This document shows positions 56,148 to 61,092 of a stretch of 64,000 nucleotides of DNA, piece by piece. Origin of the DNA: an uncultured Asticcacaulis sp. (GTDB lineage Bacteria; Pseudomonadota; Alphaproteobacteria; Caulobacterales; Caulobacteraceae). Position numbers and translations under genes: made by a program. The notes below the pieces were generated by a model. That model ran no database searches. It saw only the letters and a program-made list of their open reading frames with translations, and had not been told where the DNA came from. The stretch is taken from the NCBI GenBank assembly GCA_936940865.1, contig CAKZJB010000082.1:16341-80340 (forward strand). The letters are read 5' to 3'. The number at the start of each line of letters is the position of its first letter. Within the stretch, counting starts at the first letter, position 1.

Positions 56148-56561
56148 TTAGAAAGAAAATTTCGTTGAATCCCATCCATTTTCATGAATCAAAAGATTCC
56201 ACGACACATTTAAAAAGCCACCCCGCTCCACAGATACACTATTAAAATCTACACTGTATCCCTCAGACACAAATAATGAATTCAGCAATCCATTTTTTAC
56301 AAGGTCATCAACAATATCTGACACCGCCTTAATATTCATCCTAAGATTGTAAAATATATTATATTCAGAAATAAGACTTTCACTATTATCATCCAAATAA
56401 TCTCCAACCATTAAAAAAGGACACCCATCGCCAACGGGATGATTTTCAGAAATCATTTGCATAACAATTTCAGGCACATCGTACTTAATACGAACCAACG
56501 AGCCCTCACTTTCATTGAGACGCACCCTATTCATCAAACAGCCGAACAAAAAGTAGCTCAT
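56148..56561 (-). CDS. Putative immunity protein for the Rhs toxin
   Basis: The 137-aa protein begins 1 bp after the Rhs stop codon on the same strand. It is acidic and hydrophilic with no signal peptide, and its codons are strikingly AT-rich compared with every neighbour. No family is recognised. A small, AT-rich, soluble gene directly after an Rhs gene with a toxin-like tip is the usual place for its immunity gene. The function is inferred from this context only. Confidence 0.65.
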   Translation of the reverse strand: MSYFLFGCLMNRVRLNESEGSLVRIKYDVPEIVMQMISENHPVGDGCPFLMVGDYLDDNSESLISEYNIFYNLRMNIKAVSDIVDDLVKNGLLNSLFVSEGYSVDFNSVSVERGGFLNVSWNLLIHENGWDSTKFSF

Positions 56562-56562
56562 T

Positions 56563-59500: not shown

Positions 59501-61092
59501 GTCAGGCGATAGACGGTCGGTTGAGCGATCAGCGTGCCCGTCGCGTCCCTGGCGTGCGGTGTCAGGGGCGAATAGGTGTTGACGGTCTCAGGCGCCGGCT
59601 TGCCGCTGGCCGGAATGGGCAGGGTTACTGTGGCGACGGCACCGTTATTGGTGTTGTAGGTATAGGTGGTGGTGACGCCATTGGCGTCGGTCGTCGTCAC
59701 CGGCTTACGGCACCATTTGGCGTCCGTGAAGTTGACCAGGTCGCAGCTGGTGTAGGTGGCCGAGGTGATGATCGATACACCCGGCGTCACGACATAGTTG
59801 CTGGCGCCGCCTTTTGGCACCACCGTCGTCGTCGTCACACGGCCATAGCTGTCATAGGCGTACTGCGTGAAGCCGCCTGTCATGGCGCTGCCATCCGGAT
59901 TGACGGTCATGGTCAGATAGCCGGTCGTGGAATCGTAGGTGTTGGTGGTGACGCGGGCGGCTTCGTCGGTCGCCGACTTGATCTTGGATCCGTCATAGCT
60001 GACGACGATGCTGCGGGTCTTGGTGTTCGGCTGGGTGACCATCGTGGTGATATCGCCGGTGCCCGTGTCCTGGCTATAGGCGTAGTTCCAGGTCTGTCCG
60101 GCATAGACGACCGAAGACACCCGCCCGGCCCAGATCCCGCTGGTATTGTAATTATAGGTCTTGGTCACGCCCAGGGGCGAGGTCAGGGTCACGCTTCCCG
60201 TGCCGAGCGTATAGCTGATCTGGGGCGTACCGTTGCGCGATAGCGTCGTCGTCGCGCCGCTGGTGCTCAATGTGACCGACGGCGCGCCGCCCGGCGGTGT
60301 ACAGGCCGCCACCGTACAGGTCGTGATCGAACTGTTGACTGCGGCAACGCCAGTGACCTTGTAATTACCGTCGACCGTATATTTCAGCGCCCAGCCGAGC
60401 GAACTGCTGACAACGCTGATGGCCTTGGCATCGCCGGAAACCACCGTATAGCCGATGCTAACGACCTCACCATCCGGCTTGGTGATCGAGGTCATGGGGC
60501 CGAAACTTGGAACGCCCACGGCTTGAACGCCCGTCGTCATTGTCCGGTCGTAGACCGCCGTCGTACCGTCTTCCAGCCGCACGGTGCAGGTGCCCGTCCG
60601 GTCGGTCCAGATCGTCGTATAGCTGCCGGTGCAGGTCAGCGTCGCCGAGCCGGTGCCTTCCTGCTTGTAGGGGCCAGCCTGATAGGTCGTCGTCGTACCA
60701 TCGAAATAGCCGACCTGGAAGCGAAAGGTCGCGCCCCCGAAGCTGGCATTGTAATAGAGCTTGGCGGCGGTCGCAGAGTTACCGTTGAAGGAGATCGGTA
60801 CGCCCTGGGTGGTCAGCAGGCCCGAGAAGTTATCGACATCGCGCAAAGTCGCTGTTTTGTCCAGATAGACCTGCGTCGAGCGGCCAAGGCCGCTACCACC
60901 GACGCCCACGCCGACATCGAGTCCCGGCAGAGTGAAGGTCCCCGTCGCCAGGTTGACTCCATTCGAGTCCGTCGTCTGGAGAAGGGGCGGCTGCGATACG
61001 GACTGCGCCGCCGATTCGCCCGCGGCCAGAATCCCGGCCATGGCAAATACGACGCCCAAAACTTTGGCGCACACAGACTTAAGGCTGGTCAT
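56563..61092 (-). CDS. Rhs-repeat polymorphic toxin, Sec-exported
   Basis: The 1509-aa protein has a Sec signal (AMAGILAAGESAAQS), an N-terminal beta region (about residues 30-360), tens of YD repeats (for example YTYDNFNRAVKTCYP, YDAYGKRTQLTYP) and the Rhs core end (YYKARLYNPAIGRFMQTDPIGYGDGMNWYAYV) near residue 1275. A Gly-rich hydrophobic stretch follows (about 1360-1405), then a tip of about 65 residues (NSIYEQVGLDGKVRSRTFYND ... HEHLKSY). The tip resembles polymorphic toxin type 24 (putative RNase). The Sec signal and absence of PAAR or VgrG suggest export independent of a type VI system. The ribosome site GGGGGGACGGGGGC supports the start at 61092. Confidence 0.88.
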   Translation of the reverse strand: MTSLKSVCAKVLGVVFAMAGILAAGESAAQSVSQPPLLQTTDSNGVNLATGTFTLPGLDVGVGVGGSGLGRSTQVYLDKTATLRDVDNFSGLLTTQGVPISFNGNSATAAKLYYNASFGGATFRFQVGYFDGTTTTYQAGPYKQEGTGSATLTCTGSYTTIWTDRTGTCTVRLEDGTTAVYDRTMTTGVQAVGVPSFGPMTSITKPDGEVVSIGYTVVSGDAKAISVVSSSLGWALKYTVDGNYKVTGVAAVNSSITTCTVAACTPPGGAPSVTLSTSGATTTLSRNGTPQISYTLGTGSVTLTSPLGVTKTYNYNTSGIWAGRVSSVVYAGQTWNYAYSQDTGTGDITTMVTQPNTKTRSIVVSYDGSKIKSATDEAARVTTNTYDSTTGYLTMTVNPDGSAMTGGFTQYAYDSYGRVTTTTVVPKGGASNYVVTPGVSIITSATYTSCDLVNFTDAKWCRKPVTTTDANGVTTTYTYNTNNGAVATVTLPIPASGKPAPETVNTYSPLTPHARDATGTLIAQPTVYRLTMTQSCMSSNWTGSACSSGSADERRSTVNYTANNLLPITTTTSIGDGSKSLTTTVAYNDYGWLVASDGPKSGAVDETYFFYDSSTGRSIGTLGVDPDGTGARHRHATYTKYDNDGHVTEVDTGIAGPGTSNTVYSGVDGAARYNPAYNDWVAITATPTPSTVQERDTNEFDSYGRPVVARHFVGTSSVAKDVTQRSYDNMQRLDCVAVRLNSADYGNLANIPACNLGTTGADGSHDRITRYGYDATTGDLLTTTVAYGVSGIQSVDVTNGYNSNGTLQYVEDAKGNRTSYTYDNFNRAVKTCYPNPATAHASSTTDCRQTVYNSGTFSISNATNSYTAVYARPSGIILRDNKSYSLGYDGLSRTTSRSGDATESFTFDNFSQTTAHVQNGITETYAYNALGWLQSDVQPVGTVSYAYDAYGKRTQLTYPGSFSVTYAYDAGDELTGILENGTTQIAGFDYDDYGRRAHLTRGNGIATTYNYDSNLRLSTLEQGTTANSFYNKVTYGYNAADQITGKSPTNSAYTYVPSAKSLSYTINGLNQIGTVNSTAMGYDTRGNLSSDGTATYTYNVDNLLTSTVSSGVTTTLTYDAESRLYSVAKGTNTTTFVYDGTDLIAEYLNGSLAKRYVHGPGDDEPLVMYDYSNGGAKSYFHADDNGSIVLLTNSAGGQQGINIYDEYGVPGPVNVGRFQYTGQVWLQEIGMYYYKARLYNPAIGRFMQTDPIGYGDGMNWYAYVHGDPINGNDPDGDCTRSQSQTGIGSNNGVTTITNCPSLSDPSCPEGAHCYDGHSYCDYVPTACAAETALHGLAMVNNYIFVSVANWAQPSDLGGCLAGIGAGVAAGGTAGAGYGAAGGTFVVPGAGTIAGAGGGALVGGALGGTLAYGMPACHNGGNLSISANTPHNSGLGKAPKQSTPNSIYEQVGLDGKVRSRTFYNDKGQPFSRQDFDHSHHPFNGPHEHLKSYNQNGQVNGQTERAIPPGY

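Follow-up and report, generated by a model that had tools for sequence, protein, structure and literature searches.

The window, a 64,000-nucleotide stretch of DNA from an uncultured Asticcacaulis sp. (contig CAKZJB010000082.1), contains an Rhs island located between chemoreceptor-like and topoisomerase-IB-like genes (identified by eye at 53407-55092 and 61753-62856, respectively). In addition to the Rhs gene itself, the island includes a small AT-rich gene, a gene for a TolA-like protein and a divergently oriented gene, here termed YD-mini, which has homologues in sister Rhs islands (Table 1).

Table 1. Genes and protein features of the Rhs island in the window.
Feature	Position	Strand	Remarks
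TolA-like bitopic protein, 245 aa	55354..56091	-	After the immunity gene; one membrane segment; C-terminal LWKxIEPCWRR...CGPY...FP domain
Candidate immunity gene, 137 aa, AT-rich	56148..56561	-	Cytosolic by hydropathy; positional candidate
Rhs toxin gene (putative), Sec-exported (predicted)	56563..61092	-	1509 aa; RHS repeats and Rhs_assc_core
Ntox24-like tip, residues 1439-1496	56605..56778	-	Motif DFDHSHHPFNGPHEH; profile and Cronobacter matches
Gly/Ala-rich hydrophobic segment, residues 1358-1409	56866..57021	-	
Rhs_assc_core domain, residues 1204-1276	57265..57483	-	DPIG (1250) and DPDG (1273), presumed self-cleavage pair
DxNGV(D/N)L motif, residue 42	60949..60969	-	Common to exported Rhs proteins of the genus and of other genera
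Probable Sec signal peptide, residues 1-30	61003..61092	-	Sequence and hydropathy; sister proteins begin alike
YD-mini: small Sec protein, one YD repeat and Ig/cadherin-like domain	61253..61756	+	Likely start 61295

The Rhs reading frame is intact, with no internal stops over its whole length, and its product matches RHS repeats (E 2.4e-9) and Rhs_assc_core (E 2.2e-19). The N-terminus resembles a Sec-type signal, MTSLKSVCAKVLGVVFAMAGILAAGESAAQ, both by eye and by hydropathy (best 19-residue value 2.11), which supports the predicted export of the protein by Sec. The GC content is 0.605 for the Rhs core but only 0.489 for the tip and 0.358 for the 137-aa gene, a drop that fits the expectation for an acquired cassette, and the ATG of the 137-aa reading frame sits one base past the Rhs stop (TAAAATG). 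The reading frame, domain, GC and spacing data thereby confirm the preliminary description of a Sec-signal Rhs gene with an adjacent AT-rich gene. The same description had put the tip at about 65 aa; however, cleavage of the core at the DPIG/DPDG pair, as happens in other Rhs proteins, would release the Gly-rich segment together with the tip, presumably about 230 aa in all.

The tip, its neighbour and the Rhs family of the genus

When searched alone, the tip scores 21.2 bits (E 3.7e-4) against Ntox24 (PF15529), for which the Pfam gathering score is 24 bits, and it is therefore named Ntox24-like rather than a proven member of the family. While the profile search thus falls below the cut-off, the proposed type 24 character of the tip is backed by Cronobacter universalis, as the end of a hemagglutinin-repeat protein of pCUNV1 is 45-48% identical to it (tblastn 45%, E 3e-9). 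In C. universalis, a 155-aa gene starts 9 bp after the gene bearing the tip relative, and in C. condimenti the tip is broken and the small gene is kept. The similar tip and the small downstream gene recall the arrangement in the window, but the Cronobacter carrier is of the filamentous hemagglutinin type, and by eye its small gene has no obvious similarity to the 137-aa gene. Weaker relatives of the tip are a phage family and a Ligilactobacillus protein that carries a type 24 annotation. In streptococcal and other Firmicutes phages (eight loci), a small conserved gene upstream of the terminase is weakly related to the tip. Two further tip-like matches were discarded because their gene context was implausible.

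Ntox24 is characterized by conserved Tyr and His residues and an all-beta fold; the tip has HSHH/PHEH and a Tyr, and a low-confidence model shows four strands with a single short helix. AlphaFold models built from single sequences were of poor quality (pLDDT 40 and 65.5), and fold searches for the tip produced no match at E 1e-3. Searches of PDB sequences returned nothing but repeat-protein noise for the tip, and no convincing match for the 137-aa protein. Scans of genome contigs and IMG/VR with the tip, a tip alignment or the 137-aa protein detected no relative, and neither did an IMG/VR scan with a phage relative of the tip. As suggested by Zhang et al., Ntox24 may be a metal-independent RNase (PMC3482391).

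The 137-aa protein has no relative in 299 genomes of the family, in plasmids or in IMG/VR, and since no Pfam family matched, it is not Imm50 or Imm53 by profile. Its position 1 bp downstream of the Rhs gene supports its candidacy for the immunity function, as first proposed. None of the small genes found downstream of Rhs genes in relatives resembles it, and such dissimilarity is as expected for cassette pairs.

The Rhs core is matched in 19 of 25 Asticcacaulis genomes, and the longer Rhs proteins of the genus have the signal, the DxNGVDL motif and the core in common, while their C-terminal ends differ. The recognised ends include PT-HINT (5.5e-21) and Ntox28 (5e-10); others match no assigned domain. 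Furthermore, a small ORF lies at -19 to +33 bp downstream of Rhs for at least 12 of about 22 Rhs proteins of the genus. The swapped ends, usually with unrelated small genes just downstream, indicate a polymorphic toxin-immunity family, and judged by its sequence the window gene is a member of it, with toxicity and immunity as its putative activities. In several genomes of the genus (six loci), two neighbouring Sec-exported proteins of about 700-790 and 770-830 aa take the place of a single Rhs carrier, an arrangement that recalls a two-part shell.

A type II secretion lineage linked to Rhs genes

Most Rhs islands of the genus contain both the YD-mini and the TolA-like gene, and so does the island in the window. 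The TolA-like protein has a layout resembling that of TolA and is conserved in these islands, with its gene present in 14 of 16 genus genomes with substantial Rhs versus 1 of 9 without. It also adjoins a linked type II secretion system (T2SS) lineage outside the genus. GspG was found in 5 of the 25 Asticcacaulis genomes, and in every case the T2SS operon lies in the Rhs island. In one operon (G109) Pfam identified GspF, GspE, prepilin peptidase, GspG, GspD and GspM, and the annotation of the corresponding plasmid pASTEX02 (NC_014819) of Asticcacaulis excentricus CB 48 agrees on a T2SS operon. This plasmid is typed as conjugative, and in the stretch NC_014819.1 1-42000 the operon is accompanied by several Rhs genes with small neighbours.

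A survey of T2SS in Caulobacteraceae outside the genus covered 80 loci, which represent 79 distinct T2SS places. No Rhs, YD or TolA-like gene occurs within 10 kb of any of 36 T2SS controls with a high-scoring GspG. In the GspD tree, 24 loci, the five from Asticcacaulis among them, form one monophyletic clade, and 18 of these lie near Rhs or YD genes, versus 1 of 56 other T2SS loci (p 6.5e-12), the latter taking in controls that are off the tree (GspD below 200 bits) and excluding four loci in which GspD is missing or fragmentary. With Asticcacaulis removed, 13 of 19 clade loci still have Rhs or YD nearby (p 2.7e-9); the Fisher tests behind both values count related genomes as independent samples and serve as description only. 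Rhs alone accounts for 10 of these 19, partly from 30-kb flanks. At one locus (L147) the YD call overlaps the start of the gspD reading frame, and it was counted as YD only. Four of the six clade loci lacking Rhs and YD lie on contigs shorter than 20 kb, and two, read over 40-60 kb, have no such gene. The single exception among the 56 sits in an adjacent GspD group and has an Rhs gene with an Ntox24 tip.

The linkage suggests how such toxins may exit the cell, although linkage alone does not prove secretion. The genome of the window has neither GspG nor a T2SS GspD, only a low-scoring secretin, and the same holds for most genus genomes with an Rhs island; the T2SS route is therefore supported for the relatives, not for the window copy. 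The preliminary description had left the outer-membrane step without a candidate, and the T2SS lineage now provides one in relatives but not in the genome at hand. Accordingly, the Rhs gene of the window is either an orphan of a T2SS-linked island or uses another outer-membrane route. Of the traits of a T2SS-delivered Rhs toxin, the window has the Sec signal (by hydropathy and inspection), and the T2SS is confined to five relatives in the genus.

Sec-exported RHS toxins with a signal peptide, RHS repeats and a C-terminal toxin were catalogued in 2012, and Ntox24 was listed with T2SS, T5SS and T7SS carriers as well as RHS repeats (Zhang et al., PMC3482391). In that catalogue, Ntox24 also stands among the T2SS/Sec toxins. 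However, the table of Zhang et al. names no signature neighbours for the Sec/T2SS class (PMC3482391), whereas YD-mini, the TolA-like gene and a T2SS lineage are linked here. The closest experimental counterpart is Bcn-A of Xanthomonas perforans, an Rhs bacteriocin of 1,398 aa with an immunity gene in its locus, which loses activity in a mutant of the T2SS secretin (xpsD) and needs extra small genes (PMC7259588). By description, it is like the window protein in family and approximate size, and its immunity gene corresponds to the window's candidate; in contrast, the description of the Bcn-A locus does not list xpsD and reports no TolA-like partner, nor does its text mention TonB (PMC7259588). 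A search of mainly open-access literature turned up no account tying T2SS operons to Rhs toxin genes.

Proposed mechanism and alternative readings

Taken together, the locus probably encodes a polymorphic toxin-immunity pair on a Sec-exported Rhs carrier, for which we infer toxicity, cleavage, immunity and every transport step. Sec would carry the Rhs protein into the periplasm, where the YD repeats would form a shell enclosing the C-terminus, which would be cut at the DPIG/DPDG pair. In the T2SS-bearing relatives the folded particle may exit through a dedicated type II secretin with the help of the TolA-like and YD-mini proteins. At the target cell, the Gly-rich segment would enter the membrane and the type-24-like tip would act in the cytosol, probably as a metal-independent RNase, while the cytosolic 137-aa protein would shield the producer. 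It is also conceivable, though we hold this more tentatively and at somewhat less than even chances, that a Caulobacteraceae T2SS lineage is devoted to Rhs polymorphic toxins, with the TolA-like and single-YD-repeat proteins as regular partners.

Rhs effectors of type VI secretion systems (T6SS), such as Tse5 and Tse15, combine an Rhs core, a DPxG pair and a variable end. The window protein shares all of these, and it might be such an effector, deprived of its PAAR domain or partner, but it differs by its Sec signal and by the lack of PAAR and of a T6SS. Pfam finds no PAAR in the protein, and no PAAR or VipB (T6SS sheath) match exists in the whole genome, so the initial remark that a T6SS partner is missing stands. 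Sister proteins also have the same start, and a T6SS origin is very improbable. A Tc toxin B/C identity was rejected, as no SpvB/TcdB-type Pfam match was obtained. The protein could instead be an adhesive or structural YD/Rhs protein of the surface with a non-toxic end, for which the cadherin/Ig-like domain of the neighbouring YD protein speaks; the swapped ends, however, include known toxin domains and small genes lie just downstream, making this reading improbable as well.

Two alternatives concern the outer membrane, and we regard both as unlikely, to a similar degree, yet more credible than the preceding ones. Export may be independent of T2SS, with YD-mini, the TolA-like protein and Rhs as the core, the TolA-like protein driving the outer-membrane step and the T2SS being an optional later addition. 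In the window and in seven other genomes the trio indeed stands without a T2SS, but the TolA-like protein fits no Pfam family, and both its family-wide link to one T2SS lineage and the Bcn-A secretin mutant favour a role for T2SS. Alternatively, the window copy may be a relict of a T2SS-linked island that has lost delivery, in which the immunity gene may persist for protection. The genome without T2SS is consistent with this, as are further TolA-like and Rhs gene fragments on two contigs (C110 and C200), with a transposase-like ORF adjoining the Rhs fragment, whereas the Rhs, immunity, YD and TolA-like reading frames of the window are all intact and compact.

The outer-membrane crossing of Sec-exported Rhs toxins in Gram-negative bacteria has so far mostly been left as a 'default pathway'. 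With a specific T2SS lineage and its regular partner genes, this question becomes testable in the cultured A. excentricus CB 48. If the proposed link is true, it would extend Bcn-A, the sole experimental case found, to a dedicated system, and it would place a further delivery class beside T5SS, T6SS and T7SS, with pASTEX02, a plasmid typed as conjugative, bearing one case.
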